Source of the DNA: a virus
DNA: 24,985 nt
Virus record (IMG/VR): IMGVR_UViG_3300047673_000133
Location: 1 to 24,985 of that record
Reading direction: 5' to 3' (one strand)
Made by a program: the position numbers and the translations under genes. The notes beneath the pieces were generated by a model. It made no database searches, was not told where the DNA came from, and was given only the letters and a program-made list of their open reading frames with translations. Numbering within the stretch: the stretch's first letter is position 1; each line of letters opens with the position of its first letter. Positions 2,272 through 18,009 of the stretch are shown here, one piece after another.

Positions 2272-2295
2272 TAAATTAATTTGGAGGCTGGCCCT

Positions 2296-2790
2296 ATGGC
2301 CCTCAACAAAAACATCATTGCGTCTATTGCTGGCGCGGTTTTACTCAGTACTGCTATGTTTACGGCCAGCTTTGAAGGCACGGTTAATAAGGTCTATACG
2401 GACCCGGTTGGACGTAAGGCGGTATGCGTGGGCCATGACTCCTACGCCCCGGACGGAACCCCGCTTAAAGCTGGTGCGGTCTACTCGGACGATGTTTGTA
2501 GCTACCTCCTCGGCAAGGACATTAAGGCGGCTGACGACTCGGTTACGCGGCTGGTTAAGGTTCCGTTGTCGGTCGGTGAGCGTATGGCGTACGTGGACTT
2601 TGTGTTTAACGTGGGGAGTGGTGCATTCGCTACCTCTACGGCTCGCTCCAAGCTCAACGCTGGAGACCATAGGGGAGCATGCGGGGAATTGCTTAAGTGG
2701 GATAAAGGTAAGGTACGCGGGGAGCTAGTTACTCTCCCCGGTTTGCAGAAGCGACGCCAGGCAGAATACAAGGCGTGCATAGAGAAGTGA
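2296..2790 (+). CDS. GH24 phage lysozyme (endolysin), probable SAR type
   Basis: Peptidoglycan-degrading lysozyme used in host lysis. The ATG at 2296 is chosen because GGAGG lies at 2283-2287, which leaves a 164-residue protein, normal for the family. Residues 7-24 are weakly hydrophobic and Ala/Gly-rich (IIASIAGAVLLSTAMFTA), as in signal-anchor-release endolysins that are held in the membrane and then released. The catalytic Glu is E27 in FEG and the family Asp is D36, nine residues later as in T4 lysozyme. The position of the third classical residue, Thr26 of T4, is Ala here (A42 in GRKAVCVGHD). It is the only plus-strand gene between the integrase and the right-hand control region and is closed by its own terminator. 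No holin or spanin is recognisable nearby, except possibly the 26-residue membrane peptide. Confidence 0.88.
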   Translation: MALNKNIIASIAGAVLLSTAMFTASFEGTVNKVYTDPVGRKAVCVGHDSYAPDGTPLKAGAVYSDDVCSYLLGKDIKAADDSVTRLVKVPLSVGERMAYVDFVFNVGSGAFATSTARSKLNAGDHRGACGELLKWDKGKVRGELVTLPGLQKRRQAEYKACIEK

Positions 2791-2793
2791 GAC

Positions 2794-2818
2794 GCCCCGC
2801 GCAAGCGGGGCTTTTATA
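2794..2818 (+). terminator. Rho-independent terminator after lysozyme
   Basis: A 7-bp stem GCCCCGC/GCGGGGC (2794-2800 and 2805-2811) with the tetraloop GCAA is followed by TTTTATAT. It starts directly after the lysozyme stop and isolates that transcript from the opposing lipoprotein gene. Confidence 0.9.
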
Positions 2819-2822
2819 TGAC

Positions 2823-3617
2823 TTACTGGCTAGCGCCTACGGGAGGCGTTGCGGTGACAGCTTTGTAGCGTGAGGCAATGTCAGCGGCTACGGCATTCGT
2901 CCGGAGGTTAAGCAAGTACGTATCCGGCGTGCGGCAATCCGCGCCCATATGGTCCGGAGTAGCTACCGTGTTAGGGAGCGCACCAACCACGTAGAGCAAC
3001 GCTGAGTTACTCGCAATGCTGATAGCGTTGGACAGCCCGTTAGCCGTGTTGTCTTGTGCGGGTGTTGCGTCACACGTAGGAATAGGCGAGACCACAAACA
3101 CTTGCTTACCGCTAACGTGGGCGCGATTCACAAACACGGACAAATCGTTAGCGAACTGAGTAGCGGCGGCTTGCTGCGTTGGGTCACTCATGGGCGTGGT
3201 CATGTTGTCAAACTGGAAATTAACAATGAGCCACTCGCTAGGGTCTTTGCCGAATTGGTCCGGAGTCGGCGGGAGGCCGTTATTCTCGCCCATGACGATA
3301 CCGTGTAGGGTCGTCCCGTCCATAACCTCAGCGGTAACGTTGGCGGTAACACCCAGCGCGGCTAATGCGTCTTGCAAGCTCTGTACGGTCGCGGCGTTAG
3401 GGTCGGACGTAACTACAGGTGCGCTAGCTGCGTCCAATGCCACGGCGCGCAACGCAACTTTAGCCGTTGCCTGGGTTCCTTGTTGGAACGGGAGACCGTA
3501 GAACGACAGCGAGAGGGCCTTAGCTGGCGGCGTGATTGTGTTTGATGAGCCTCCGCCTCCGCCGCACGCGGCAAGGGTTACGGCTGTGAGTGCTGCAATA
3601 ATTGTGTTTTTAATCAT
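2823..3617 (-). CDS. Lipoprotein with degenerate SGNH-hydrolase fold
   Basis: Predicted envelope lipoprotein of 264 residues. A signal peptide ends in the lipobox LAAC with C18 as the lipidated residue, followed by a Gly-rich tether (GGGGGSS). The rest aligns by eye with SGNH/GDSL esterases: LSFYGLPFQQGTQ occupies block I, where active members have FYGDS; VNFQFDNM occupies block III, where they have a GxND motif; GKQVFVVSPIPTCD matches the strand before the C-terminal block; and PDHMGADCRTPDTYLL replaces the DxxHP motif. The nucleophile Ser and the block III Gly/Asn are missing, so hydrolysis is unlikely. It follows the RNA polymerase gene and may be expressed late or from the prophage. A surface-exclusion or receptor-masking role is inference. 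The start has only a weak ribosome site (AATAAGA). Confidence 0.65.
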   Translation of the reverse strand: MIKNTIIAALTAVTLAACGGGGGSSNTITPPAKALSLSFYGLPFQQGTQATAKVALRAVALDAASAPVVTSDPNAATVQSLQDALAALGVTANVTAEVMDGTTLHGIVMGENNGLPPTPDQFGKDPSEWLIVNFQFDNMTTPMSDPTQQAAATQFANDLSVFVNRAHVSGKQVFVVSPIPTCDATPAQDNTANGLSNAISIASNSALLYVVGALPNTVATPDHMGADCRTPDTYLLNLRTNAVAADIASRYKAVTATPPVGASQ

Positions 3618-3692
3618 GGTCTTATTGAAAGTGGGTTAATAGCCCCGGAGGGCATTACGTAAGTTTACACTGAGTTACCGGGTTTACAAGGA

Positions 3693-6011
3693 TTAGAACC
3701 ACGCGAATAGCGATTCCCGCACCTCGTTTAGCTCTAGCGAGCCGTAGGCCGGTAGCTCCGGGAGCGAGGCTTTACCCTCCGGCGACAACCCCGCCGCTAC
3801 CTCCGTGGTCCAGTTCGCTAGTAGGTCCGTAGACATGAGCGTTACAAACTCCTCCCGCGTTGCGTTGAACACGTCCCCGCATTGTGCGAACGGTGCGCCA
3901 AAGCTATCGTGAATCATCCAAAAATTACGGACTCCTTTACGGTATAGCGCATTGACCGTGCGGACCATATGGGAGGCGTCTACTCCGTGGACAAAGTTGG
4001 GCGATACCCCCGCGCGCTGGCCGCGCTTGCTGAGCGTATCCTTGCGGACCTTAAACTCGCGCTTGCGCTCAATCCCAAAGCTACGGGTTACGAGGGGCTT
4101 GGTAATCTCGTTGAATCGCTCTTGCGTCACCACAAGTCCAGCGGGAGTGGTCCAACGGAGTGGCTTACCCTCCTCGGTGAGAACGTCCGCCACGCCTTGC
4201 AAGTACGCCATAGCGGCCAACATACCCGGCGCAACCTCGGTAAAGCATGCGTTAATCTGATTAGCCAACCATAGACACTCACCCTCAGGCGCTCCCGTCT
4301 TGGTTTGGACTTGCTCGCCAAACGTAAAGGCCCCCGCGCTATAAACCTTGGTCATGCTCGGACCCTTGAGTAGATCGCGGTCTAGCGCCTTGCTGGCCCA
4401 AAAGTGGAGGTGTGCGAGTAAGTCCGCCCCGGCCCCAGCTACCAACATACAGAGGCGGCGAGTGAGAGCCTCCGCCATACGTCCGTAGTAATCGTCTCCG
4501 CGTTCCGTGGGTGTGAGGTTGACCATTGCGCCCGCGCTACCGTCCCGCGTCATACCGGAGAGCATTTGCACACCTGAGCAAGACCCGTCCAACGCTCCGG
4601 CCAGGTGCGACTTAAACCCCGGCCCCTCGTACGTGTACCCCGCCCACTCCATGCATGCGGCTAGGAATTGGTAAGGCTTGTCCGCCTTGCGCCACGCGGT
4701 ATTAACGTACGGGTCGCTTGCGATGCGCAAAAGGTCCGCCTCGTTATCGCGCGTCCATTGCTCGCGTTCCTCAGGCGTCCGGTTGACCTTGCGCCCGTCT
4801 ACCATGAGCTTGTCCTCACCCATGAGGTTACACAGGTTGATAGCCAGCCAGCGCACGCCCTCACGACCCAACGGGACACCCTCGGCAAACTCCAGCAAGC
4901 CTTTACAGAGGTCAGACCCTTGCGGGCTAATGATCGTAGTAGCAGGATACATGCGGCCCCGCCAATCGAGATTCCACGGGAAGTAAAACGCCTCAGCGGC
5001 CTCTACCTCTGCGAATGCGTCAAGCGTCAGCGCGGAGCGAATCATATTGCTACGCGTCTCCGTGGGTGCATCATGCCGCACCTCTACCGTACCGTAGCCC
5101 TCGATATACGAGGACAGCGCCTCACGTTCGAAGTAATCAGCCACCTCTTTAACGCGCGCATTGACACGCCATGCGGTCCCCTGTAGGGCGTTGAGGGCGT
5201 CAACTATGTCTTGACCCTCGATAGCTTTACGGACGCCCCGTACGGCCTGTATGTGGCTGTACAGATACCCACCGTGCGCCATTGAGGTGGACCACGGTAC
5301 GGGAGGGACTAACATAGGCTTGCCCTCGATAAACTCCGCAAGGCTAGATTCCGTCAATACCTCTTGAATAAACTTGGTGGTAGCCATGAGGTTATTAACC
5401 TCTTGCATGGCGGAGCCAAACTGACGCTCTCCCGATACCTCCTCAATCCAGCCGGTTGCGTTACAGAAGTAGTCAATGAGGACTAACGCGGTTTGCTCGT
5501 AGCCTAGTGTCTTGTGTGGGTCCACGCCTCCGCACTTATCCTTAAGACGTGCGCCGATACGCTTAGCCGCGCTTTGCACACTCGCACCGTCTAGCGTCAT
5601 CATGCGGCCCCAAGAGACCGATAGCCCCGCCCATGTAGCCTCAACCATTTGCGAGATAGCCAAACCACTAACAGGGTTCTTACTCTTGCCGTCTAGTTGG
5701 ACGCGTGACGTTTGACTATTCTCGGGAGACAGCGCCCGTCTAGGATCAATGCGGACTTGTGGGCCACCCGTTGCTAGCGCTTTGGTAAAGTCATTAAGCG
5801 CTCGCTCTACCGCGTCCCGGCGCAAATGTGACTCACCAATCTTAAACTCACTCATAGCCTCGCGTGATAGCTGGCGGAGAACTAACTCGCTCTTTCCCTC
5901 CGTTACCAAGCGGTCCACATGCGCGCGGGCGTATGGGCGCTCCGTGGGAAGTTGCGAGGCTTGCATGTCGCGCTTTGCTCGGCGCGTTGCTTGGTAAGCG
6001 GAGATTGTCAT
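3693..6011 (-). CDS. T7-like single-subunit RNA polymerase
   Basis: Phage DNA-dependent RNA polymerase that transcribes later phage genes from its own promoters. Key motifs are present: motif A DGSCSGVQ with metal-binding D475, motif B KGPSMTKVYS with K549 and Y557 spaced like K631 and Y639 of T7, and motif C HDSFG with D702. The C terminus SLFAWF matches the aromatic foot of T7 RNA polymerase. At 772 residues it is shorter than T7 (883), with most of the reduction on the N-terminal side, as in other distant relatives. The ATG at 6011 has AAGGA five bases upstream; an immediately preceding TTG is less likely. It is the last large gene of the replication operon, which is the phiKMV-type position. 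No T7-consensus promoter was found in the window, so its recognition sequence is probably divergent. Confidence 0.95.
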   Translation of the reverse strand: MTISAYQATRRAKRDMQASQLPTERPYARAHVDRLVTEGKSELVLRQLSREAMSEFKIGESHLRRDAVERALNDFTKALATGGPQVRIDPRRALSPENSQTSRVQLDGKSKNPVSGLAISQMVEATWAGLSVSWGRMMTLDGASVQSAAKRIGARLKDKCGGVDPHKTLGYEQTALVLIDYFCNATGWIEEVSGERQFGSAMQEVNNLMATTKFIQEVLTESSLAEFIEGKPMLVPPVPWSTSMAHGGYLYSHIQAVRGVRKAIEGQDIVDALNALQGTAWRVNARVKEVADYFEREALSSYIEGYGTVEVRHDAPTETRSNMIRSALTLDAFAEVEAAEAFYFPWNLDWRGRMYPATTIISPQGSDLCKGLLEFAEGVPLGREGVRWLAINLCNLMGEDKLMVDGRKVNRTPEEREQWTRDNEADLLRIASDPYVNTAWRKADKPYQFLAACMEWAGYTYEGPGFKSHLAGALDGSCSGVQMLSGMTRDGSAGAMVNLTPTERGDDYYGRMAEALTRRLCMLVAGAGADLLAHLHFWASKALDRDLLKGPSMTKVYSAGAFTFGEQVQTKTGAPEGECLWLANQINACFTEVAPGMLAAMAYLQGVADVLTEEGKPLRWTTPAGLVVTQERFNEITKPLVTRSFGIERKREFKVRKDTLSKRGQRAGVSPNFVHGVDASHMVRTVNALYRKGVRNFWMIHDSFGAPFAQCGDVFNATREEFVTLMSTDLLANWTTEVAAGLSPEGKASLPELPAYGSLELNEVRESLFAWF

Positions 6012-6032
6012 CAAGTCCTTATCAGTTAATAG

Positions 6033-6638
6033 TTAGCCCCATTGCTCCGCCATAGCGTCAGCAATACCGAGAAAAGTACGGCTCCGCTCTTTCCATCTAT
6101 CAGGACCAGGCGGGAGGTTGTGGATGCGTTGGTCCCTACCGTCTACGATGTTCGTAGACTTGAGCTTAGGGAGGTTCTTAAGCCATAGACACGTAGCCTT
6201 AGTCTCTCCGTGTCCGAATTGCCACGGCTGGACAATTTGGTCAGGTTTCCTAATGCGGCTACTAATGACGCTAATGGGATTCTCAATTGCTATACGCTCA
6301 ATAGGCGCGTCCATAAGGAGTTTTACAAACTCAAGCGCGGCGGTTTGATCCTTTCGCCTATTCGGGTACTTAGGGTGCGGGCGGCGCTCGGAGGTTGGTA
6401 AATGTTTGTCCTCAGGGTGGTATAGCCAAAGAGTCCCTGACGTAGCCAAATACGTGCAAGGCGGGTGAGCTACCATCAAATCCCAACCCTGATAAAGAAC
6501 GTCTCTTACGTCCCCTTGGTAATGGTTCCCGTTGGGTGCGTCCGTTGGCAACATGTCACAGCTAAGCGCGTAGTGTCCTCGCGCGGTGAAAGCGTCTCTA
6601 ACTCGTCCGCTATACTCACAAGCAACCAAAACGCGCAT
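6033..6638 (-). CDS. Cytosine-C5 methyltransferase-like protein
   Basis: Protein of 201 residues related to the small phage branch of cytosine-C5 DNA methyltransferases. Near the N terminus is the SAM-binding-like stretch VACEYSGRVRDAF; HPPC carries the candidate catalytic Cys (C61); and IENPISVIS (ENP at 119-121) stands where classical enzymes have ENV. It is much shorter than stand-alone C5 methylases (over 300 residues) and lacks an obvious target-recognition domain. Its specificity is unknown, and it could be a general protective methylase or a divergent enzyme. The start overlaps the stop of the upstream gene as TAATG, and the gene ends 22 bases before the RNA polymerase start. No restriction enzyme gene is near, so self-protection against host restriction is the likeliest role (inference). 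Confidence 0.7.
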   Translation of the reverse strand: MRVLVACEYSGRVRDAFTARGHYALSCDMLPTDAPNGNHYQGDVRDVLYQGWDLMVAHPPCTYLATSGTLWLYHPEDKHLPTSERRPHPKYPNRRKDQTAALEFVKLLMDAPIERIAIENPISVISSRIRKPDQIVQPWQFGHGETKATCLWLKNLPKLKSTNIVDGRDQRIHNLPPGPDRWKERSRTFLGIADAMAEQWG

Positions 6639-6832
6639 TAGGTAAATGCGTAATAGTCTTGGGTAAGCTCGCGCTCTAGCCGCGTTGAGTCTGACACACC
6701 AAGCTCTAGGTACGCGTCCCGCATGTGGTCTCCGGCTCGTTCCTGATTACCCGTCTCCAGCGCAATAGCGATAAGGTTATAAAAGGCGTTGTACTTAGCA
6801 GTATTGATTACGCGGTTGAGCGTTGCGTCCAT
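6638..6832 (-). CDS. Hypothetical small helical protein
   Basis: Unrecognised 64-residue protein (MDATLNRVINTAKY...) that looks alpha-helical, with a Leu/Ala-rich first half and an acidic second half ending in DYYAFT. The ATG at 6832 is chosen because AAGGA lies eight bases upstream; an upstream GTG would add seven residues without a ribosome site. It overlaps the previous gene by 25 bases and the methyltransferase start by TAATG, so it is translationally coupled on both sides. Confidence 0.6.
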   Translation of the reverse strand: MDATLNRVINTAKYNAFYNLIAIALETGNQERAGDHMRDAYLELGVSDSTRLERELTQDYYAFT

Positions 6833-6996
6833 CGGTTGTATTCCTTTTCGCACTCTTGGTAGATAGATTCGGCTTTGCTGAATAGTTCGGCGCGGCGTCC
6901 TTTACGTGTCTCTTTGTTTGCCTCGTCTAACACGGCGTAGAGCGCACTGTTAGGAGCTACGCGTGTGTCTTTGTAGTAGACAGTGGAATTGCTCAT
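6808..6996 (-). CDS. Hypothetical 62-residue charged protein
   Basis: Unrecognised protein, highly charged and probably helical (LDEANKETRKGRRAELFSKA). Its start overlaps the stop of the upstream dNTP pyrophosphohydrolase-like gene as ATGA, and its 3' end overlaps the next gene by 25 bases. This arrangement suggests translation by coupling rather than by a strong ribosome site. No motif indicates a function. Confidence 0.55.
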   Translation of the reverse strand: MSNSTVYYKDTRVAPNSALYAVLDEANKETRKGRRAELFSKAESIYQECEKEYNRWTQRSTA

Positions 6997-7508
6997 TGAC
7001 AGTCTTTGGGCGGGTACAACGCGTTGAGGTGTTCTATGATTGCCTCCACCTCCGCGAATGCGTTATTAGTTGCTACCTCGTAGTCAATCTCCGAACGCAG
7101 TGCGCCGCCACGGGCCAGCCCAACGCGCGGGCGGTTGTCGATCAACATTCCCGTAGCCTCTGCGGTTAGCAGAATCGTGCAACACGCCTTTACCGCGCCC
7201 AAGTGGTGTACAAGCTCTTTACGGTCTACCCGTTCGCCTGAGGTGTACTGTGCGGTGTGTCGGAGGATCGCTCCTAGATACGTCATTGCCTCTACTGGCG
7301 TATGGATATAGTTGTTCTCTCCATACTTGCGCTTACCGCTGTGTAGCGCTGCGCTCTCGTGTAGCGCTGCAATGCTATGGATAAGGTGGATCGGAGGCTT
7401 CTTATCCCCGTACGCTTGCTTGGGGTTAGGCGCAACTCCAGCGCCCTTGACGTACTCTTTTCCGTCAACCATAAAACTATTTGCCGACACCGTATAAGTA
7501 CTATCCAT
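6993..7508 (-). CDS. dATP/dGTP diphosphohydrolase family protein (MazZ/DUF5664-like)
   Basis: Predicted nucleotide pyrophosphohydrolase of 171 residues that would convert purine dNTPs to monophosphates. The family pattern is clear: KKPPIHLI and a helix ending in HSGKRKYGENNY (KYGENN at residues 61-66), a second helix with LGAILRHTAQYTSGE, then a third, HHLGAVKACCTILL. These carry the His/Glu/Asp residues typical of this all-alpha, metal-dependent fold. To my knowledge the family includes MazZ of phages with 2-aminoadenine (Z) DNA, although members also occur in phages with ordinary DNA. The start at 7508 overlaps the upstream MazG-like gene by eight bases and has GAGG seven bases upstream. 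Its pairing with a second small pyrophosphatase points to dNTP-pool control during replication. Confidence 0.75.
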   Translation of the reverse strand: MDSTYTVSANSFMVDGKEYVKGAGVAPNPKQAYGDKKPPIHLIHSIAALHESAALHSGKRKYGENNYIHTPVEAMTYLGAILRHTAQYTSGERVDRKELVHHLGAVKACCTILLTAEATGMLIDNRPRVGLARGGALRSEIDYEVATNNAFAEVEAIIEHLNALYPPKDCQ

Positions 7509-7722
7509 ACTTGCGCCTCATTTTCTTAAGTTTCTTAGCTACGCGTTTGTCAAAGCGGGCATTCTTAATAACCCCGCGCTCTATCAGTAAAAGAACAAAG
7601 GCCACTGTGTCAGCGGCCTCGTCCGTAATTTGGTTTGCGCCCCAATCCTCACGGGCTAGTTTCATGGCGGCTTGTATAAACTCACTCGCCTCCTCTGCTG
7701 CATGTCGGAGTAGGGCTGTCAT
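7501..7722 (-). CDS. Small MazG-like all-alpha NTP pyrophosphatase
   Basis: Protein of 73 residues with the two signature metal-binding motifs of the MazG/PRA-PH superfamily: EEASE at residues 10-14 and DEAAD at 34-38, separated by a helix. It is short, a minimal domain, and ends in a very basic tail (RFDKRVAKKLKKMRRKYG) that could contact nucleic acid. The likely reaction is hydrolysis of a nucleoside triphosphate to monophosphate and pyrophosphate, but the substrate cannot be read from the sequence. It lies directly upstream of, and overlaps by eight bases, the MazZ-family gene, so the two probably act in one pathway. Confidence 0.7.
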   Translation of the reverse strand: MTALLRHAAEEASEFIQAAMKLAREDWGANQITDEAADTVAFVLLLIERGVIKNARFDKRVAKKLKKMRRKYG

Positions 7723-7729
7723 TTAGTTA

Positions 7730-8518
7730 TCAGGAAATGAGGAGGTTTTTACGATGGCCCTTGGAGCTAACCATTACGCGCCCGCGTGACCAATGCCCGC
7801 ATTTGCAGCGGTACCGGGTGTACTGGCCTACTTGAGTACTACGCTTGCCCTTGCGGATAACCTCAGCGCTACCGCATGCGGGGCACTTGTGCGCGCCCTC
7901 GGTACCGTCCTCTTTGTAGTTGGCCACGTTAGGGTGGCCTTGCATCCACGGACGGAGAATGAGATACAACTCCTCAAGGCTGAGAACGTCCTCAATGTTG
8001 TACGCTTTCATTTCCGCCCACGCCTCCGGGTTGCCCTTAAGGCACTCAACCCAAAGAGAAAAGCCGGGGTACTTGCCGTGCTTTAGCTTCTTATGTTGCG
8101 TACAGAGTTTGTCCGTAAGAAACTCCAGCTTTGCAGAGGTCATAGCGAAGTGCTTACGCGCCTCAAGCAACGTATCCACAACCTTAAACGGACTCGGCGG
8201 GAGGAGACCCAGCAATAGAAAGCGCGCTTGAATCTTGCGAACGTCAAACTTCTTACCGTTATGGGCTACGATAATGTCCGCTTGGTCTAGGAGTTTCCAC
8301 AGCTTGCGGACAATGCGGGTGTCATCCTCCTTATTGCGCCGCTTACTATTGTCCTCGTACATAATAGTTTGCTCGCCTAACCACTTTGCGCAAAAGGAGA
8401 GGATGCACCACTCTTTTGTAACTTGACCAAGGCTAAGGTTTTGTTGCCACAGCGACCACACATAACCCATAATCGGGGAGGTTTCGATATCAAGTACTAG
8501 AATGCGCGGTTTATTCAT
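7730..8518 (-). CDS. DEDDy 3'-5' exonuclease with C-terminal zinc ribbon
   Basis: Ribonuclease H-like exonuclease of 262 residues. The four acidic residues are visible: D10 and E12 in VLDIETS, D92 in HNGKKFD, and D177 in YNIEDV, with Y173 giving the DEDDy pattern. This resembles the proofreading domain of DNA polymerases as a free protein. The C terminus adds a zinc ribbon with CPAC and CKC pairs in a basic setting, likely for nucleic-acid binding. The start at 8518 is preferred because it overlaps the previous stop as ATGAATAA; a start 42 bases upstream would add a poorly supported extension. The family DNA polymerase here has its own exonuclease residues, so this may be a recombination, RNA-processing or DNA-degrading nuclease. 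Confidence 0.8.
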   Translation of the reverse strand: MNKPRILVLDIETSPIMGYVWSLWQQNLSLGQVTKEWCILSFCAKWLGEQTIMYEDNSKRRNKEDDTRIVRKLWKLLDQADIIVAHNGKKFDVRKIQARFLLLGLLPPSPFKVVDTLLEARKHFAMTSAKLEFLTDKLCTQHKKLKHGKYPGFSLWVECLKGNPEAWAEMKAYNIEDVLSLEELYLILRPWMQGHPNVANYKEDGTEGAHKCPACGSAEVIRKGKRSTQVGQYTRYRCKCGHWSRGRVMVSSKGHRKNLLIS

Positions 8519-8711
8519 ACTGTGCGGTTGCGTCCTTTGTGATTTGTTCGCGTGCTTCATTTTCGAAGCGGGTAGCGTCTTGGTTGTAAATGTCTATCGT
8601 CACGGTGCGTACGGCCCTAAACTCCGTACCGTCCACGTTGGCTACAATCTCGTAGACCATTAGGCTGTATTGCTCGGTCCAGCCCTTCTTTACCGTCTTA
8701 ATTACTGTCAC
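8511..8711 (-). CDS. Hypothetical 66-residue protein
   Basis: Unrecognised small protein that looks beta-rich in the middle (YEIVANVDGTEFRAVRTVTIDIY) and helical at the end. The start codon is GTG at 8711, overlapping the TGA of the endonuclease VII-like gene as GTGA. Its own stop overlaps the exonuclease start by eight bases. Tight coupling on both sides suggests a real gene acting with the nuclease cluster, but its role is unknown. Confidence 0.6.
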   Translation of the reverse strand: MTVIKTVKKGWTEQYSLMVYEIVANVDGTEFRAVRTVTIDIYNQDATRFENEAREQITKDATAQYE

Positions 8712-9109
8712 GTACTCTCCAACTTCTTAGCCGCTCTTGTGGCCCGCGCTTTAGCATTGCGCTTGATACGGCTAGCCTCCTTCTTTTCCTCAGGTGTTTT
8801 ATGCGTGTGGTGCAAGAGGAACGTAGGGTTATTGTTGAAATGTTCGATATACGCAGCACAGCGGCGCAACACCTCAGGAATAGGGAGACCCGTACCCATT
8901 GCCTTAGCTGCGTTCTCAATCTTGCCCAACCGGCTGTTAGTCCACGTCGCAAGGATCGCGCGGTGAAACCCGGTAATGTGGCAATGGTCGGCGGCGGCTT
9001 TATCAGGCGGGATAGTCCAACCGGATATAGGATCACGTCCGCCTTGCTCGGCTAGCTTGCGCGCCCGGTACTCCGGTAGCTCACTGGCCTTTAATTTTTG
9101 CAAGCTCAT
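8708..9109 (-). CDS. Endonuclease VII-like nuclease (His-Me finger)
   Basis: Protein of 133 residues related to phage recombination endonuclease VII, which resolves Holliday junctions and branched DNA before packaging. The nuclease signature is ADHCHITGFHRAILAT (D41, H42, H44), followed by a conserved Asn (N58) and SRLGKIENAAKAMG. The CxxC zinc pairs of T4 endonuclease VII are replaced: GRDPISG stands before the His-Me finger and no CxxC follows it. As far as I recall, this is how autographivirus members look. The C terminus is very basic, suited to DNA binding. The ATG at 9109 has GGAG five bases upstream, and the gene begins inside the 3' end of the exonuclease gene. Confidence 0.85.
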   Translation of the reverse strand: MSLQKLKASELPEYRARKLAEQGGRDPISGWTIPPDKAAADHCHITGFHRAILATWTNSRLGKIENAAKAMGTGLPIPEVLRRCAAYIEHFNNNPTFLLHHTHKTPEEKKEASRIKRNAKARATRAAKKLEST

Positions 9110-10019
9110 TAAGCTCCTTGGTTACGCGGGTCTCCAGGCGAGCTAACGCCCCCGCAATGTGTTTGCATGGCGGGAATGCCTCAGCGACGTTGGAGAGGGT
9201 TGCTTGAGCGTCCGTACGGAGCCATAGGAGGCCCGCTTGTTCAATCAAGGCGTCAGCCCACACCTCACCGTAATGGTCCTGATACGCGGCTTGTACGCGG
9301 TCATACGCGTCCTCTACGCAAGTGGTCCCGGCTAGATACTTCTCAGCCCGCGCCTCTCCGCACTGTTGGCCGAATAGCTTAGGCAAGCCCGGTATGTGGT
9401 CCGCTCCGTCACCCTGGAGCATTTGGAGATAGAACCACTTAGCCCCGTACTGGAGACCGTCCACGCCTATAACGTCATACGCGCCTACGGGTACCTCGGT
9501 AAGGCTGGAGTCCATCCAATTAATATGGAGACCGGGGAGCATTCGCATATCTTTATCACGGGTCGCAATAACCGTCCGCTTTTGGTGTGCGCAATACGCT
9601 ATCCCGTCGTCCGCCTCCCGCGTTACCCAAACCTTAGGTGTAAAGCGCGGCCCCTCGTAATGCTCAAGTACCTCACGCAGATAGCCCCAATTCTTAGGTC
9701 TACGGGACGCGTTACGCTGGCCTTGGTACTTCTTAACCGTTGCGATTAAGAACCGGTGCGCCTTGGTACAACCGCTAGCGCTTAGGTGTAGCCTTACCGA
9801 CTCCGCCCCACTCTTTAGCCGCATAAGCTCGGTGCGGTCGAATGCGTTTTGGCGCGCCCTTGCTGGCTCGCACTCGTCATTACCCGCCGCGTAATACGCA
9901 AGGTAATCACCGTCTAGGTGCATTTCCAAACCGGGAACGGTACCGGGAAATACTCCCGCGCCAAACTGAGGGGACGACTCGGCGGCTTGTGCTATCAAGC
10001 CCGCTAAGTCAAACGTCAT
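9081..10019 (-). CDS. FEN/PIN-type 5'-3' exonuclease
   Basis: Predicted 5'-3' exonuclease of 312 residues, equivalent in role to T7 gp6: removal of RNA primers and degradation of host DNA. Motifs in order are HLDGDYLAYY (D36), HRFLIATVKKYQGQR, the metal-binding EADDGIA, ATRDKDMRML, and the helix-hairpin-helix region with MLQGDGADHIPGLP. The N-terminal segment MTFDLAGLIAQAAESSPQ precedes the catalytic core and resembles the start of the single-strand binding protein gene at 12016. Its start lies inside the preceding small membrane-protein gene, with GGGAGG ten bases upstream. The endonuclease VII gene begins inside its 3' end. Confidence 0.9.
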   Translation of the reverse strand: MTFDLAGLIAQAAESSPQFGAGVFPGTVPGLEMHLDGDYLAYYAAGNDECEPARARQNAFDRTELMRLKSGAESVRLHLSASGCTKAHRFLIATVKKYQGQRNASRRPKNWGYLREVLEHYEGPRFTPKVWVTREADDGIAYCAHQKRTVIATRDKDMRMLPGLHINWMDSSLTEVPVGAYDVIGVDGLQYGAKWFYLQMLQGDGADHIPGLPKLFGQQCGEARAEKYLAGTTCVEDAYDRVQAAYQDHYGEVWADALIEQAGLLWLRTDAQATLSNVAEAFPPCKHIAGALARLETRVTKELNELAKIKGQ

Positions 10020-10119
10020 GCCGCATCAACCTCCCGATAGCGTAGCCAAGCGCGAAAAACAGTAAGAATTCCACGACGCTAGCGCCCAGAATCCATAGAC
10101 CAATCTCCAATCCTTTCAT
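10009..10119 (-). CDS. 36-residue membrane peptide
   Basis: Short gene encoding MKGLEIGLWILGASVVEF followed by a second hydrophobic run (LLFFALGYAIG) and a basic end, RLMRHDV. It predicts a single transmembrane helix with a cytoplasmic positive tail. Its ATG overlaps the stop of the upstream gene as ATGA, and its stop overlaps the exonuclease start by 11 bases, so it fits the operon's spacing pattern exactly. The function is unknown; a small membrane anchor or host-membrane effector is possible. Confidence 0.6.
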   Translation of the reverse strand: MKGLEIGLWILGASVVEFLLFFALGYAIGRLMRHDV

Positions 10120-10289
10120 GTCTCAGCAACCTCCCGCGCCAGCGCTGCTACAAGCTCCGTAGCGGCTGCGGCAAGCTGTACAGCGGTCTCAAGAGACTCC
10201 GCAGTACCTCCGGCGCATGTACTATGGTTCAACTCCTTAAAGCGCTTGCCTACGTTGATTAGCGCCTCGGCTGAGTTATTAGCCCTCAT
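10116..10289 (-). CDS. Hypothetical 57-residue helical protein
   Basis: Unrecognised protein, mostly helical and Ala/Glu-rich in its second half (AVQLAAAATELVAALAREVAET). The ATG at 10289 overlaps the TGA of the PP-loop gene (ATGA), and its own TGA overlaps the next ATG the same way. There are no catalytic motifs. The amphipathic C-terminal helix may be an oligomerisation or binding segment. Confidence 0.55.
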   Translation of the reverse strand: MRANNSAEALINVGKRFKELNHSTCAGGTAESLETAVQLAAAATELVAALAREVAET

Positions 10290-11170
10290 GTAGATGCCTC
10301 CGTCTCGAACACTTCGCAACTCTCTGAACAGCCCGCGTCCCTATCCGCGTCACTAGGCGTAGGTGCCTGGCCGTCTTTAAGCTCTTGGTGTAGCCTGAAA
10401 AGATCGTTGGTCGAGCGGTTACCGCGAAAGAAAACGCGCGGCTTTCCATCGTTGGTACGCGCTCCGCTAAAGCCGTGTTGCTCCTCCATGCGGCGAGGAA
10501 AGTCGTAAATCTCCGGGCGTTCCGAGATAAGCCGCATGTGTTTAGACAGGGATTTTTTCCAACACCATTTACAGTTGCCCTCATGCTCCTGTAACCCTAG
10601 CTGGAACGGCTGTTGTTTCCACCACTCATTTACGTCTTGTTTATCAGTGGGAAACATATCAACTAGCGGGTAAATGATCCGCTCCGCGCTAGCGGACGCC
10701 TTGACTCTACGCGGCTCGTCCTCCCGGATACCTATAGCGGTGTCGTAGCTACCAGGGCCCCAACCGATCGAGCGCAAATAGGACCGCATTGGCCTAAGTT
10801 TTAACTCGCGGTTGCACGGCTGGAACACCACGTTAGGTACGCCGTACTTGCGTATAACCTCCTCGTATGGCTCTCCCTTGCGGCTTGCCGTCGCATAGGT
10901 GACAACGCGGTGAGTAGTGCCTACGCCCGCCCCTGGGTGTACTACCGCCTCAAGCCATACGGTTTTAAAACCAAACACCTCGTCACACATATGCACGAAT
11001 CTAAGGGTTCTCTCGTCCTCCTCTCCGGTGTTAGCGAACGTCACCCGGATATCGTGGGTGTCTCCAAATTTATCGAGCAATAGCTTTGTCATGAGGCCCG
11101 AAGTCTGTCCGCCGCTAAAGCTAATTGCCAAGCGGGGACGGCTAAGGACCGTATAAGCGGTCCTTGCCAC
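10286..11170 (-). CDS. PAPS reductase-like PP-loop ATPase
   Basis: Protein of 294 residues in the adenine-nucleotide alpha-hydrolase (PP-loop) superfamily, annotated in many phages as PAPS reductase. The PP-loop SFSGGQTSG is at residues 17-25, followed by VTFANTGEEDERTL. A Cys pair (GNCKWCWKKS) near residue 200 could hold a metal or a persulfide. The usual chemistry is adenylation for sulfur or amide transfer, but real substrates in phages are mostly unknown; tRNA or nucleotide thiolation and DNA modification are candidates. The start is GTG at 11170, only three bases beyond and in the same frame as the TAA of the upstream gene, with AAGGAG partly overlapping it. This suggests termination-reinitiation. 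Confidence 0.75.
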   Translation of the reverse strand: MARTAYTVLSRPRLAISFSGGQTSGLMTKLLLDKFGDTHDIRVTFANTGEEDERTLRFVHMCDEVFGFKTVWLEAVVHPGAGVGTTHRVVTYATASRKGEPYEEVIRKYGVPNVVFQPCNRELKLRPMRSYLRSIGWGPGSYDTAIGIREDEPRRVKASASAERIIYPLVDMFPTDKQDVNEWWKQQPFQLGLQEHEGNCKWCWKKSLSKHMRLISERPEIYDFPRRMEEQHGFSGARTNDGKPRVFFRGNRSTNDLFRLHQELKDGQAPTPSDADRDAGCSESCEVFETEAST

Positions 11171-11173
11171 TCC

Positions 11174-12016
11174 TTAGCCCATACTCGCCAACGGGTCCAC
11201 GCTAGCCGCGTTCTCCGGTACCTCGTCACGCTCCGGCGTCTCTGCGTCCGGGATATCCGCCTCAGGTGTGCCCTCCGGCATAGCGGCAAGAGCGGCCAGC
11301 GGGTGAGCCGTCCAATTCTTAGCCTTCATAATGCGTTCCTGAAGAACGTTCTTAGAGCGCTTGGGGCTGATAACCTCGCCCTTATCGTTCTTACGCTCGT
11401 CGTAGAAGCCAGGGATATGGAGGCTGTCCCACATAGCCTTAGTACCCAAATCCCAAATGAACGCCTTAAGCTCGGTGATTGCGGGCGCAACCTCAACATT
11501 AACCATGTCACCCGTAACCACGTCTTGCACTGTGGTACCACGGAAGTTATAGCCGTTCGCTCCCTTGAGGTTGGCGTAGGTTTTCTTGCCGTCCGCGCTC
11601 TTGCGGTGGAATACCTCTACGATAAAAGGCTTACCCAGCAATTGCGCCATGTGCGTAGCCGTTCCGCCGTGCGCTTGGTTCATTGCGGAGAACAGCTTAA
11701 AGAAGTTAGCGCGGTCGCTAAAGCTCAGTGTCTCTTGGACCGTGATACGGTGCGGAATAAGCGTACCGTCATCCAACTTACGCGGCTGGTGGTTCGGGCC
11801 GGAAAGCTCAAACACGAGGTCAACCTTGTCACGGAGGACCAACTTACCGGCCATGTTTTCCTCTTCATGCTTGCCAAGCTCAAAGTAACCAACAAGGCGC
11901 GCACGGGCCATACCCGTGGCTGGCGGTTGGTACTCTGCACTTTGCTTAACTTGGGTCATATCCGGACCCGTCTTAGCGGCTTGTGCGATAACGTCAGCGA
12001 GATTAAATTGAGTCAT
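11174..12016 (-). CDS. Probable single-stranded DNA-binding protein
   Basis: Protein of 280 residues placed directly after DNA polymerase, as the single-strand binding protein often is in phiKMV-like phages. The central region (about 35-220) looks like a beta-rich OB-type domain with many aromatic and basic residues. It ends in an acidic, proline-rich tail (about 245-270) and the tip SVDPLASMG. Acidic C-terminal tails are typical of SSB proteins and recruit partners. The first residues, MTQFNLADVIAQAAKTGP, resemble the start of the FEN exonuclease. The leader carries TAGGACTAC about eight bases before ATG. Assignment rests on position, tail and size; I see no signature that proves it. Confidence 0.6.
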   Translation of the reverse strand: MTQFNLADVIAQAAKTGPDMTQVKQSAEYQPPATGMARARLVGYFELGKHEEENMAGKLVLRDKVDLVFELSGPNHQPRKLDDGTLIPHRITVQETLSFSDRANFFKLFSAMNQAHGGTATHMAQLLGKPFIVEVFHRKSADGKKTYANLKGANGYNFRGTTVQDVVTGDMVNVEVAPAITELKAFIWDLGTKAMWDSLHIPGFYDERKNDKGEVISPKRSKNVLQERIMKAKNWTAHPLAALAAMPEGTPEADIPDAETPERDEVPENAASVDPLASMG

Positions 12017-12049
12017 ATAAGTGTAGTCCTAACTAATTGGTAGATTTAT

Positions 12050-14455
12050 TTAATGAAGGAATGACGGCGTGTAACCGCTCATGTATTGCTGTCTTAGTTC
12101 AACGCGGAATTTATCGGCGCATGCTTCAAAGTCCCCCGTAAATTTGCGCTCTTGCATCATGTTGTCTCCGTGTACCGTGACACTCGGCACAGGGACGGGA
12201 ATAGTCCAACCGAAGTACCATTCCATAAAGTCGCTAGCGGCCAACATGCAAGCATGTAGAAGCGCGCTTGACTCTACGAGTACCTCCTTTTGTGCGTCCG
12301 CGTACAAGGCGTCATGCACCTGATTTACGAGCAAGGCCCGATGGTTGAAATTCTTACGGGCATAGAAGGCGCGGATAGAGAGCCACATAGCCGCCTTAGC
12401 CCATTCCCCGCCAGTCCCTTGGACCTCGTAGTTAGCGATTTCCGTAGGGCTAAAGCCTTGCGGTTGTGGCGTGGGCTGTCCCGGCCTCGGCTTGCGCCTA
12501 AGCAACCAACCCGGCGTAGGTGACTCCCGATAGCTATAGACCTTGTTATCAGGCGTAACGCTAAAGCCCTTACCAAGCTGGCACATAAGGCCGTCAATGT
12601 CCGGGTGCGGCTGTACGTTTTGCGTGGGTCGGCGGCTACGTTTGATCCGTTCCGTCTTTTTGCGGTTGTACTCCTCAAGCTCTGGATACCGCTCATTTTC
12701 AGCCTTAATCAACGCCTCTACGTCCTCAAGGCTCATACCTGTGGTCTCCGCAATCTTTGCGGCTCCCGCACCGTACGCACGTTGGAACGAGAATTCCTTA
12801 GCGCCTTGTCGCTTCTTAGGCCAGCCCTCACGCGGCGCAATGCCGTTAGCCTCGTCACCCTTACACCAAAGCAAAGCCTCCGCGTACGTCACGCCCTCTT
12901 TCTGGCTAACGCGTACGCAGTGCATATCAAGGCCAGCATTCAAGTCCGCAATAAGCTGGACACAGCCGCTTAGAATCGCCTGGACGTACACCTCAAGAGA
13001 GGTAAAGTCAGATTGGACAATTTGGCCGTTCGCACCAAAGCGCGACTCAAAGACTAGCTTGACTTGTGACTTGCCCTCCTTAGGCACATTCTGGAGGTTA
13101 GGGTTAGACGAGGAGAAACGCGCCGTAACCGTGGACGTGTGGTTAATGCTGTGGTGGATAATTGAGTCAATCCCCACAAGGGTAAGCATCCCCTTAGCCT
13201 CACCCGTCTTTTCGTCAACCGTGACGTAATACGTACCAAGGTCTTTAGTGAGGTTCGCTACACCCGCCAGCGTCTTTAGGAACGGGATATCTCGATTACC
13301 CAACGCCTCGATAACCTCACCCGCTACGCTGTACAGTCCGTCCGTGCTACTGGCCCACTCCTCCTTAGGCGCGGTGTGTCCCGGAAACTCATAATAGAAG
13401 TCACGCATAGCGGTTTTAGGTCCGCGCGCAATGTCATCTACTTTGATTTTCTTTGTCTTAAGCTCACCCGCGTTCTTACCACTGAGATAGCGGAGCGGCT
13501 CCGGTGGATGCGCCAACCCGTGCCACTCGTCCTTAAGCATGGTCTTATGCTCGACCTTGCCGTCTACCATCCCCTTTTCGTGCTTGAGGTAGATAACCTC
13601 AGCGTCCAATTTGTAATAGACGGGGTTACCCTCCTCGTCTGTTACTACGGTGCGCTTTTGATACTTAACCTTACCGCCAAAGATAAGCGGGCTAAGGTGG
13701 TACCGATTCGACCAATTGAAGTCAAACGGGAGCGCGTCCGGGAGGTACCCGCGTAGCTCGGTGGTAATCTCCTCCAGCTTGCGCGTTAGTTCGGAGGCGA
13801 GCTTTACGCCCAACTCACGATTAACATACATGCCGTTCCGTTCCATTTCAACGGTACACAGCAAGCTACCCATGTTGAGGAGGATAGATTTAACCTGACC
13901 CGTCTTACGCGCCTTGGCAAGCTGGCCTAGAAAAATCGTTTCTGTGTTACCGATATCCCCTAGCCCGCTATCGTCTCCGCACAGGTACCGCATGAGTAAA
14001 TCGCGGTCAATGTCTACTGTGTCAATCCCCGCATTCCATAGCGCCTTAACCTCGTCAATCTTGAGGCTACCGCCATACGCGGGGACCATATCGTCCATTG
14101 AGAGCATTTGGGAGTTAGGCTCCATCCCTCGGAGCAAGTACTCCGCAAGTTGGCAATCCCAGACATTTCCGCCGCGTGCTACAAACTCCATCCACGCCTC
14201 TAAATTCTGAGGCTCACGCAGCGCGTACAACAAGTCAAACTTGATATTGACGCCAACAAGTATCGTTGTGTCTTTTAGCAGTTTTGTAAACCAGTCAAAG
14301 GGGCGAGTACCGCGTCCGAAGTATTCGCCAAAGACTTTCGTGTCTTTACGTTTCCAGCCGCTAGCCACAGGGAAGTTATCCGCAAGGAACGGGCTAGCCT
14401 TGCGTTTCATGTAGCTCTTAATTGTTGTCTCGATATCCCAAACGCAGTAACTCAC
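12050..14455 (-). CDS. Family A DNA polymerase with 3'-5' exonuclease
   Basis: Replicative DNA polymerase of 801 residues. The exonuclease domain begins at once with WDIET (D7, E9), and VGVNIKFDL is the second exonuclease motif. Polymerase motif A is SDFTSLEVY with D483, motif B is RQGAKEFSFQRAYGAG with R549, K553 and Y561 at the standard spacing, and motif C is VHDALYAD with D715. Motif C has Ala where E. coli Pol I and T7 have Glu after HD. The start codon is GTG, with the recurrent TAGGACTAC leader box overlapping the stop of the upstream gene. Its position after ligase and HD hydrolase and before the probable SSB is standard for this phage group. It is expected to need helicase, primase and possibly a host processivity factor. 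Confidence 0.95.
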   Translation of the reverse strand: MSYCVWDIETTIKSYMKRKASPFLADNFPVASGWKRKDTKVFGEYFGRGTRPFDWFTKLLKDTTILVGVNIKFDLLYALREPQNLEAWMEFVARGGNVWDCQLAEYLLRGMEPNSQMLSMDDMVPAYGGSLKIDEVKALWNAGIDTVDIDRDLLMRYLCGDDSGLGDIGNTETIFLGQLAKARKTGQVKSILLNMGSLLCTVEMERNGMYVNRELGVKLASELTRKLEEITTELRGYLPDALPFDFNWSNRYHLSPLIFGGKVKYQKRTVVTDEEGNPVYYKLDAEVIYLKHEKGMVDGKVEHKTMLKDEWHGLAHPPEPLRYLSGKNAGELKTKKIKVDDIARGPKTAMRDFYYEFPGHTAPKEEWASSTDGLYSVAGEVIEALGNRDIPFLKTLAGVANLTKDLGTYYVTVDEKTGEAKGMLTLVGIDSIIHHSINHTSTVTARFSSSNPNLQNVPKEGKSQVKLVFESRFGANGQIVQSDFTSLEVYVQAILSGCVQLIADLNAGLDMHCVRVSQKEGVTYAEALLWCKGDEANGIAPREGWPKKRQGAKEFSFQRAYGAGAAKIAETTGMSLEDVEALIKAENERYPELEEYNRKKTERIKRSRRPTQNVQPHPDIDGLMCQLGKGFSVTPDNKVYSYRESPTPGWLLRRKPRPGQPTPQPQGFSPTEIANYEVQGTGGEWAKAAMWLSIRAFYARKNFNHRALLVNQVHDALYADAQKEVLVESSALLHACMLAASDFMEWYFGWTIPVPVPSVTVHGDNMMQERKFTGDFEACADKFRVELRQQYMSGYTPSFLH

Positions 14456-14467
14456 GTATCAGTAGTC

Positions 14468-15016
14468 CTATTTAGTCAGTTCAGTAAAACGCAACATGAA
14501 ACGGAGGTAAGCCTCGCGGGACGGTTGCGGATAGACACGCTTTCTAACCGGCTCGATACCCCGCGCCCATGACCAAGCAATCATGTCCGTAGCGTGAAAC
14601 TCCGGGCGAGGCTTAGGCATCAAATCCCGCCTCTCAGTAACAAGCATGCGGAGGTCCGCTTGTTTGACGCACGGGTCCAACGGGTACGCCAACCCAAAGC
14701 GCGCACAGATAGCCCCCTCTACGCGTTGCTCAATCGCTTTGTACTCCGGGACGAGTTGCTTAAGGGGGCTATTCATGTCCGCCATGTACGCCTCAGAGGC
14801 GTCATGCAAGAGACCCGCTAAGGCATGCTCAGGCGGTACCAAGTCGGAGACGGCTACGCTGTGTTGGGCAACGCTGTAAAAGTCCCGTGTGTGGCCCGTA
14901 AAGCGGTTTTGACGGCTCAGCGCGTGGGCTATGTCCTCGATATCGATCATGTCCGCCGTGGGGCGGGAAAAGTCGAAGTATCGGCCCGTAGCCGTGAGGA
15001 TTTGCGGAGGGATCAC
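14468..15016 (-). CDS. HD-domain phosphohydrolase (YfbR/DatZ-like)
   Basis: Metal-dependent HD hydrolase of 182 residues. The HD ligands are visible as H52 in VAQHS, H71-D72 in LLHDAS and a later Asp in KQADLRML, with the family-typical DFSRPTADMIDIEDIAHALS opening. Members act on deoxynucleotides: host YfbR is a 5'-deoxynucleotidase, and DatZ of Z-DNA phages is a dATP triphosphohydrolase of this same broad family. Substrate choice cannot be decided here. The start is GTG, overlapping the upstream TGA as GTGA. Lying directly before DNA polymerase, it probably tunes the dNTP pool together with the two pyrophosphohydrolases at 6993-7722. Confidence 0.8.
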   Translation of the reverse strand: MIPPQILTATGRYFDFSRPTADMIDIEDIAHALSRQNRFTGHTRDFYSVAQHSVAVSDLVPPEHALAGLLHDASEAYMADMNSPLKQLVPEYKAIEQRVEGAICARFGLAYPLDPCVKQADLRMLVTERRDLMPKPRPEFHATDMIAWSWARGIEPVRKRVYPQPSREAYLRFMLRFTELTK

Positions 15017-15156
15017 TGTTTAGCCTTATTAAAGTCCGTATACGCCTCTGTGGGTGTACTACCCACTCCGCAACGGTAATCCGTACCTCTACGAAACGCG
15101 CAGTACCAGCGTCCCATGCTGTAGTACTTTGACGAGTACCAAATGTGCGGTCTCAT
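15013..15156 (-). CDS. Hypothetical 47-residue Tyr/Cys-rich protein
   Basis: Unrecognised short basic protein (MRPHIWYSSKYYSMGRWY...) with many Tyr, Trp and Arg and two Cys, probably a compact beta structure. The start at 15156 overlaps the upstream TGA as ATGA, which is why it is chosen over longer in-frame forms. Its stop overlaps the HD hydrolase start as GTGA. Confidence 0.6.
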   Translation of the reverse strand: MRPHIWYSSKYYSMGRWYCAFRRGTDYRCGVGSTPTEAYTDFNKAKQ

Positions 15157-15377
15157 TGCTCGGGACCGTCCACAATGTAGCGGACCGCTTTCTCCATATC
15201 GGCCAGCGTGTACCACGCACCCGGCAGCGTTCCCAACGTCATAAACACACGCTCTCGTACACCTCTCTCATATGTCTCCGTGGCACGCTGCGAGGCGGCA
15301 TTACTAAGCCCTGAGATTTGGGTACGCAGTGCTAAAATTTGGCCTTCAAGTTGTGCAATCTTTTCACGCGTGTCCAT
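15153..15377 (-). CDS. Hypothetical coiled-coil protein
   Basis: Protein of 74 residues. The N-terminal third (REKIAQLEGQILALRTQI) has a heptad pattern consistent with a short coiled coil; the rest looks like a small helical, winged-helix-sized domain (MTLGTLPGAWYTLADMEKAV). The ATG overlaps the ligase stop as TAATG, and GAGGA is seven bases upstream. It could be a dimeric DNA-binding or adaptor protein, but no family is recognised. Confidence 0.6.
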   Translation of the reverse strand: MDTREKIAQLEGQILALRTQISGLSNAASQRATETYERGVRERVFMTLGTLPGAWYTLADMEKAVRYIVDGPEQ

Positions 15378-16309
15378 TAGGTATCCTCAATGTGGCGAAA
15401 CGATTTAAAGACGGGGTGGCGTGGAGCCTCTTTAATCCCGTGGTCAAAGTATTTAAACGTTACGAGTTGGTCTACAATTTCATGGCGGTTAGCCCAAAAC
15501 TCCGCCCGCTGCGAGGCTGTAAAGCCAGTGCCGATATTGAACGTGGTTCCGTCCGGGTCGTCAGCAAAACGAACAACCAACGCCCCTAGAGTGCCTTTAC
15601 CTACTAGGCCGTCCTTTGCTGTGCTGCGTTCCGTGTTGCCCAAGGCGTCCCGCTTAGCCTCGTTGGTGTTATGCATTTCCTCAACGTAGCCCACTACCTC
15701 AGCCTCAGCGTCTACGAATCGCTTAACCTTAACTAGTCCGCCCTCCCGCTCCGTACTACGTCCGCACTTATATAGGGCGTGTGGGGAGCGAATCATTAGG
15801 CCCTCGTAGCCCTGCTCAAGGAATTGAGCCTCAAGCGTAGCTAGCTCCTCATGACTCGTAACGCTGTGTTGCGGAACGCCTCCAATGCAGTCCGTCATTA
15901 GCTCGTCCAACACCATATGGCATACGGATTGCTCCGCCGCGTCTAGTCGGTCGTCGTAGGGTTGGATTCCGTTAATAGTCTCCGCACCTACCTTATCGAA
16001 CACGTAAAACTTAAACTCAGGCTCTCCGGACTTGCGCATAACGGCCATGCTGTTTTGCATACAGTTCGGGTCCGTGGGGCTACCTACAACTAGCTCGCCG
16101 TCCAGGCCCTCTAGTACGTCCCCATACTCCTTAAAGAACCGCTGTACAAATTCGTTCGGAATAGGTTTGAGGCTACGGCTATACGCAACCCCGCCAAACA
16201 CCACGCAGCGGATACCGTCAATCTTTGGCGAGGCCCACACGGGAAACTTGATTAGCTCCGGCTTGGTGAGCGTCGCGGCTAAGTTGGGGCGGAATCCAGC
16301 CGGGACCAT
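15377..16309 (-). CDS. ATP-dependent DNA ligase
   Basis: Nick-sealing ligase of 310 residues, close to the size of other T7-like phage ligases. Motif I is SPKIDGIR with the adenylated lysine K29; motif III is near GLDGELVVG; motif IV is EGLMIRSP; motif V is GLVKVKRF. A C-terminal OB-type domain follows from about residue 215. The ATG overlaps the stop of the upstream lipoprotein gene as TAATG and has no strong ribosome site of its own, so expression is probably coupled. It joins Okazaki fragments made by the primase and polymerase of this operon. Confidence 0.93.
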   Translation of the reverse strand: MVPAGFRPNLAATLTKPELIKFPVWASPKIDGIRCVVFGGVAYSRSLKPIPNEFVQRFFKEYGDVLEGLDGELVVGSPTDPNCMQNSMAVMRKSGEPEFKFYVFDKVGAETINGIQPYDDRLDAAEQSVCHMVLDELMTDCIGGVPQHSVTSHEELATLEAQFLEQGYEGLMIRSPHALYKCGRSTEREGGLVKVKRFVDAEAEVVGYVEEMHNTNEAKRDALGNTERSTAKDGLVGKGTLGALVVRFADDPDGTTFNIGTGFTASQRAEFWANRHEIVDQLVTFKYFDHGIKEAPRHPVFKSFRHIEDT

Positions 16310-18005: not shown

Positions 18006-18009
18006 GCGG

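Follow-up and report, generated by a model that had tools for sequence, protein, structure and literature searches.

Beside the RNA polymerase gene of a virus record lies a small gene whose product looks like an esterase of the SGNH type in which the catalytic residues have been exchanged. Is this protein still an enzyme, and if it is not, what might it do for the phage? We addressed these questions for the gene in its window (the whole 24,985-base virus record) and for the family to which it belongs.

The gene and its neighborhood

The features around the gene are:

2281-2790, plus strand: phage lysozyme (endolysin), a convergent neighbor (Pfam and PHROG-type matches)
2794-2811, plus strand: terminator-like hairpin, 3' of the lysozyme gene
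2823-3617, minus strand: candidate pseudo-SGNH lipoprotein gene, 264 amino acids, phrog_8011 (open reading frame, phrog_8011 match, fold, and hhalign)
3564-3575, minus strand: lipobox L15-A16-A17-C18, followed by G-G-G (sequence; C18, G19, and G20 are present in 56/56 family sequences)
3693-6014, minus strand: T7-like RNA polymerase (Pfam RNA_pol, 2.5e-64, and a phage-family match)

The lipoprotein gene has 264 codons, an ATG start, and no internal stops, and the polymerase gene, on the same strand, precedes it by 75 nt. An initial annotation of this DNA had described an intact frame with a clean lipobox (LAAC) next to the RNA polymerase, and our analysis agrees with it on each of these points. 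The signal peptide is MIKNTIIAALTAVTLAAC and the lipobox cysteine is residue 18, from which we infer that the protein is located in the envelope. Lipoproteins without an aspartate at position +2 are expected in the outer membrane; as there is no aspartate at +2 here, the outer membrane is the most likely destination of the protein.

Two other aspects of the window should be mentioned. First, the lysozyme has a hydrophobic N-terminus, which we take to resemble that of the SAR endolysin class. Second, the window contains two tyrosine recombinase (integrase) genes, one near either contig end (127-1539 and 23497-24474), so that the T7-like RNA polymerase and the replication module at 3693-19293 (DNA polymerase, primase, DnaB-like helicase, ligase, exonuclease, and endonuclease VII) occur in a phage that also has integrases.

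A family from phages and prophages of Burkholderiaceae

Residues 3-255 of the protein match phrog_8011 (E = 2.4e-47), which is listed with function unknown, and there was no significant match in Pfam or NCBIfam. The named relatives are Bcep176 gp55 (33.7% identity across 67% of the query) and, via Bcep176 gp55, KS9 gp26. Both are recorded as hypothetical proteins, with notes that they are phiE125 gp28-like and similar to phi1026b gp27. A profile search with five sequences matched 93 virus stretches (80 were kept) and also 13 bacterial contigs (10 from Paraburkholderia, one each from Caballeronia and Burkholderia, and one Rudaea metagenome-assembled genome). The family is one of phages and prophages of Burkholderiaceae. 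Among the gathered loci, 99 open reading frames match the family profile, and they reduce to 56 non-redundant sequences once rows at least 93% identical to a kept row are removed. (This set is without the Bcep176 and KS9 proteins, L002 and L006, and without L073 and L098, which have no recognised lipobox.) Because 99 loci carry a family member, the unusual motifs that we describe below are not a chance property of the window.

All 55 family members that were searched match the phrog_8011 profile and none of them matches the Pfam SGNH models (PF13472 and PF00657). Several weak matches were discarded: PF04273 for the window protein (E = 0.017, under the cut-off); 17 Pfam families that are scattered across the members with no consistent family; and phrog_542, which matches 12 of the 55 members and covers only the lipoprotein N-terminus in Bcep176 and KS9, so that it is no clue to homology. 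One member of 55 matches phrog_15667, "superinfection exclusion" (E = 0.0087), which we set aside and do not use as evidence. PADLOC matched none of the 55 members, sequence searches of the PDB gave no credible match, and no plasmid record matched. We found no printed account of phrog_8011 as a pseudo-SGNH protein in the open-licence PMC literature. The family was already known, as an uncharacterised one; what is new is its conserved identity as a pseudo-SGNH lipoprotein with a dedicated upstream element.

The family appears to keep an SGNH fold

An AlphaFold2 model, computed from an alignment of 55 of the 56 sequences (L043 was excluded for its long N-terminal extension), has a pLDDT of 81.9 and a pTM of 0.76. 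In the PDB, Foldseek ranks a carbohydrate esterase first (E = 6.7e-4), and acetyl-xylan esterases, TesA, and GDSL-type lipases come next. Because the rmsd values in the Foldseek list are large (5.6-20.6 Å), we give more weight to the VIA-align comparison, in which the top rows are esterases and lipases of the SGNH/GDSL type and the model aligns to 1esc with a Z score of 12.9 and an rmsd of 3.7 Å over 188 residues.

Profile comparison points the same way. With hhalign, the window family matches six canonical phage SGNH lipoproteins at a probability of 98.3% (E = 1.1e-14). (Pattern searches of viral contigs yielded canonical proteins of this kind, and Burkholderia phage Magia gp29 was identified with tblastn.) An alignment of the mature domain alone, with signal peptide and linker removed, has a probability of 95.3% (E = 2.3e-8, score 59.8), as compared to scores of at most 23.3 for 50 column-shuffled controls and a probability of 0.17% for a reversed alignment. 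A profile of six TesA-type chromosomal SGNH proteins was not matched (probability 0.11%), so the link to the superfamily goes through the phage lipoproteins and the fold. Together, these comparisons support the view that the family keeps the alpha/beta/alpha fold of SGNH hydrolases. The initial annotation had proposed that this fold is retained and had named structure prediction as the check; the predicted structure is an SGNH fold and not a different one.

The viral structures that match the model are lipases and SGNH-domain tail proteins (tail spikes and tail fibers), and VIA-align matches a tail chain of phage N4 (9lc0_I, Z = 11.1). Phage tail proteins often have SGNH domains, so the window protein could be a virion component, such as a tail-associated glycan-binding protein. 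We consider this very unlikely because the family members have a signal peptide with a lipobox (C18 in 56/56, with the two rows lacking a recognised lipobox excluded) and because the gene is free-standing with its own upstream element (see below).

The catalytic residues are replaced across the family

The sites that correspond to the SGNH motifs are:

3489-3497, minus strand: G41-L42-P43 at the G-D-S site (hhalign; Pro in 55/56)
3303-3317, minus strand: G101-T-T-L-H105, the kept glycine of block II and an invariant histidine (Gly in 53/56, His in 56/56)
3204-3215, minus strand: Q135-F136-D137-N138 at the GxND site, where the family consensus is Q-L-D-D (hhalign)
2925-2939, minus strand: D227-C228-R229-T230-P231 at the D-C-x-H-P site, with Asp kept and His replaced by Thr (alignments, and DCLHP of Magia)

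At the nucleophile site, hhalign pairs G41-L42-P43 with G-D-S, so that the catalytic serine corresponds to Pro43. (This pairing rests on the full-length hhalign comparison and on the end of strand 1 in the model because the mature-only alignment starts after block I.) Among the 56 non-redundant sequences, position 43 is proline in 55 and alanine in one, and all four proline codons are used. There is no serine at this position in any row of the full family alignment. The initial annotation had read FYGLPFQQGT (residues 39-48) as a replacement for a FYGDS nucleophile block, and the alignment of P43 with the serine bears this out. In block II, G101 aligns to the oxyanion glycine, with moderate certainty as this is a loop alignment.

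In block III, hhalign pairs N133-F-Q-F-D-N138 with N-F-G-L-N-D. Asp137 is found in 55/56 sequences and Gln135 takes the place of glycine in 52/56. N138 is private to the window, and 55/56 non-redundant members have aspartate there, so the family motif is QxDD. VNFQFDNM (residues 132-139), which the initial annotation had proposed as the substitute for GxND, is indeed present and does replace that block, with Q135-F136-D137-N138 on G-L-N-D; its N138 is not a feature of the family.

The last block lies outside the canonical alignment and was placed via P0004, a second degenerate lipoprotein family (A4 in our alignments). By hhalign, A4 matches the canonical SGNH lipoproteins at a probability of 100%, and it matches the window family at a probability of 95.6%, or 76.3% for the mature domain only. 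In this way D-C-L-H-P of Magia corresponds to G-C-L-Y-P of A4 and to D227-C228-R229-T230-P231 of the window protein. Position 230 is threonine in 51 and serine in 5 of the 56 sequences. This replacement of the catalytic histidine, and also the retention of D227 and G101, were not in the initial annotation.

As the catalytic serine, asparagine, and histidine are all replaced, the SGNH reaction should not run. The replacement of the serine and the histidine across the whole family strongly suggests that SGNH chemistry has been lost. Of the earlier suggestion that the fold was kept and the activity lost, the first half is supported by the model and the second half has this strong indication from the alignments.

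The chief alternative to a loss of catalysis is a rebuilt site, given how little the polar pocket residues vary. H105, Q154, D158, and D227 are invariant (56/56), Asp is found at positions 137 and 138 in 55/56 each, and position 230 is Thr or Ser in 56/56. Under this explanation, the SGNH triad was lost and another catalytic arrangement arose from H105, D137/D138, D227, and T230, and it might act on a different bond. Also, the mature domain has 36 highly conserved positions, and 20 of them are in the strand-end loops that we took to form the old active site (20 among 67 loop residues versus 16 among the other 157, out of 224; P = 4e-4, Fisher's exact test, with the loops drawn after conservation had been seen). 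Against a rebuilt enzyme, the nucleophile position has neither Ser nor Cys. Furthermore, C182 and C228 are each lost once in the 56 sequences, both in L071, which fits a disulfide rather than a cysteine nucleophile; C228 is probably bonded to C182. Overall, we view a rebuilt enzyme as rather unlikely.

The family is under purifying selection. In 13 of 14 hand-chosen pairs, dN/dS was 0.034-0.244; these values are rough because the remaining pair was saturated and several values of dS were above 1. Could the gene be the decaying remnant of a former esterase? Its catalytic residues are lost and the window's N138 is private, as decay would predict. We find this hardly credible, given these dN/dS values, the conservation of the replacement residues (with four different codons for proline at position 43), and the conservation of the upstream element. 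Purifying selection and conserved pocket loops do fit a new binding role.

A promoter-like element upstream of the gene

3662-3669, minus strand: TGTAAACT, a promoter-like (-10) element, 52 nt upstream of the ATG (conserved in the family)

Of the 56 family genes, 38 have TGTAAACT at 46-64 nt upstream of the start codon, while 0.01 would be expected from the background of the same contigs. Among the remaining upstream regions, some have a near variant in roughly that position, such as TGTAAGCT or TGTAGACT, and others have no clear variant. The KS9 counterpart is TGTAAAAT. Further copies of TGTAAACT in the fetched loci are mostly before the same gene in near-identical or named relatives, including Bcep176. 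Within the window, GTGTAAACTT has a single copy at up to one mismatch. One such copy is not unusual by chance (1.46 expected), so the case for the element rests on the family.

TGTAAACT resembles a -10 box (TAAACT). When we scored the upstream regions with approximate sigma-70 matrices, 23 of 55 were above the 95th percentile of controls (one of the 56 sequences, too near its contig end, was left out). A standard consensus sigma-70 scan called no promoter at the element's site in the window, so TGTAAACT could also be the site of a regulator. GTAA repeats with a spacing of about 10 nt surround TGTAAACT in the window (3634-3690, minus strand) and in upstream regions of the family: among 40 of these, GTAA precedes the element by 10 nt in 10 and follows it by 10 nt in 6 (0.06 expected for each). 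This spacing suggests helically phased binding sites.

A promoter for a T7-type phage polymerase is unlikely because the motif also precedes the gene when its neighbors are spanin genes, tail-side genes, or others. In a search of the collection for the element with a start codon, 119 stretches matched; among the 80 listed, three had a GC content above 0.52, and all three belong to this family. TGTAAACT was not seen in 14 stretches upstream of canonical SGNH genes or of P0004. We propose that TGTAAACT is a promoter-like element that travels with the phrog_8011 gene.

Varied phage backgrounds and probable transcription in lysogens

The gene has different neighbors in different phages. In the gene-called loci, the upstream neighbor is an RNA polymerase in 10/82 and spanin-like genes in 20/82, and the central tail fiber J is often no more than four genes away. 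(For these counts, 82 of 96 loci were indexed by a simple gene caller, and each cluster is named from one representative.) Even the slot behind the polymerase holds two divergent versions, with polymerases 56-57% identical and lipoproteins 33-37% identical to those of the window. In L010, the polymerase is 57% identical to the window's but the lipoprotein, a few genes away, is 71% identical. This mismatch fits gene exchange between phages.

The location behind spanin-like genes raises the possibility of an accessory role in lysis, in which an outer-membrane lipoprotein aids the spanin or endolysin step. The gene directly follows spanin-like genes in the 20 loci just mentioned, it is behind the Rz/Rz1 genes in Bcep176 and one gene past them in KS9, and it is convergent with the lysozyme gene in the window. 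We think this role improbable: the gene has its own promoter-like element, KS9 and Bcep176 already have Rz/Rz1, the lysozyme gene of the window is on the opposite strand, and the phi1026b homologue (as identified by record notes) is transcribed in uninduced lysogens, in which most phage genes are silent (PMC2920897).

In RNA-seq of a phi1026b lysogen, phi1026bp28 is at 199,000 RPKM, the third of the 29 genes listed in Table 3 of PMC2920897, and 54 of 89 phage genes had no detectable expression. phi1026bp28 should be gp27 because the same source equates phi1026bp79 with gp78. The KS9 note on phi1026b gp26 is consistent with this, bp27 being a DNA adenine methylase. The record of KS9 gp26 notes a similarity to phi1026b gp27, and it is by such annotation notes that the homologue is linked to our family. 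By analogy, the family gene may be transcribed in lysogens.

Among the criteria for a phage moron in PMC2920897 are its own transcriptional control and a GC content that sets it apart from the other phage genes. The GC content of our gene is 0.572 versus 0.545 for the window, within one standard deviation of 795-nt windows, so it does not stand out in the way expected of a classical moron. The background does vary: RNA polymerase, spanin-like, or other genes precede the gene, depending on the locus.

A proposed role for the family

We propose that the gene is an independently transcribed prophage moron that encodes a non-catalytic, ligand-binding SGNH lipoprotein of the outer membrane, and we consider this explanation probable. 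The gene, with a putative promoter of its own, would probably be transcribed while the prophage is silent. The product would be exported, anchored by its lipid, and most probably directed to the outer membrane, where it would display an SGNH fold whose reaction is switched off by the changes of nucleophile Ser to Pro, catalytic His to Thr, and oxyanion Asn to Asp. As the pocket loops are under strong selection, binding is the most likely mode of action: the old active-site cleft would hold a small or polymeric ligand or a protein partner. SGNH proteins usually act on acylated envelope glycans or lipids, and a ligand of this class is a natural candidate. By holding its ligand, the protein would alter the surface of the lysogen, and phage adsorption might change with it.

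A narrower proposal is that the protein masks a receptor. A former glycan-deacylating SGNH esterase would now bind and cover the acylated glycan that it once cleaved, and so hide the lysogen from later phages whose SGNH tail spikes recognise or deacetylate the same glycan. Magia gp29, which is encoded next to an O-acetyltransferase gene, may trim acyl groups from surface glycans, and if the window family and P0004 both took this path, then it happened at least twice. We regard this specific version as unlikely. The initial annotation had named receptor masking and superinfection exclusion as examples of a new binding role at the envelope; the evidence that bears on them is indirect, namely the promoter-like element that accompanies the gene and the strong lysogen transcription of the phi1026b homologue (as identified by record notes).

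With these results, a widespread and unexplained gene family of Burkholderiaceae phages has a predicted fold, a promoter-like signal, and a likely mode of action. Should the protein indeed work by binding, then a prophage-made pseudoenzyme alters the host surface, and both a lysogen phenotype and phage exclusion can be tested. Our results also warn against labelling such proteins as esterases.

Comparison with known systems

The window gene belongs to the same family as Bcep176 gp55 and KS9 gp26 (phrog_8011), for which no function, fold, or promoter is recorded. In Bcep176 and KS9 the gene is behind the lysis genes, while in the window it is behind the RNA polymerase.

Canonical phage SGNH lipoproteins share with the window family the lipoprotein export, the SGNH fold, the order of the motifs, the cysteine after strand 4, and the cysteine of D-C-x-x-P. 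Magia gp29, annotated as an "outer membrane-associated lipid esterase," keeps GDS, GLND, and DCLHP and matches Pfam Lipase_GDSL_2 (5.4e-20). In contrast, G-x-P, QxDD, and DCRTP stand at these sites in the window family, which is not matched by the Pfam SGNH models. In phage Magia (L138:4959-6923), the gene for the canonical outer-membrane SGNH esterase adjoins an O-acetyltransferase gene on the opposite strand, near the tail fiber; the two could form a surface-modification pair.

P0004, which surfaced in related viruses during the search for canonical proteins, is also a lipoprotein family with a degraded SGNH site, which is degraded in a different way. It occurs in 21 loci, with members at L129:8727-9689 (minus strand) and in L139-L159, and has GDD for GDS, ESHTxND (so that xxND is retained), and CLYP or CLVP for CLHP (His to Tyr or Val). 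It reaches Pfam Lipase_GDSL_2 weakly, with 28 bits against a cut-off of 32.9. As P0004 and the window family degenerate separately, SGNH activity has apparently been lost more than once among these phage lipoproteins. P0004 is followed by a canonical or near-canonical SGNH lipoprotein frame in L129/L139, L155, L148, and L149, and these could be pairs of a dead and an active enzyme. L129 also contains a single open reading frame (6821-8551, minus strand) with a canonical SGNH lipoprotein domain and a C-terminal glycoside-hydrolase-like domain (GH130, GH32, and GH43 Pfam matches).

Finally, some phages block superinfection with a lipoprotein or membrane protein of their own, such as T5 Llp or Cor of phi80-like phages. 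By description, the window protein would be like them in being a small envelope protein that is made by the infected cell or the lysogen.
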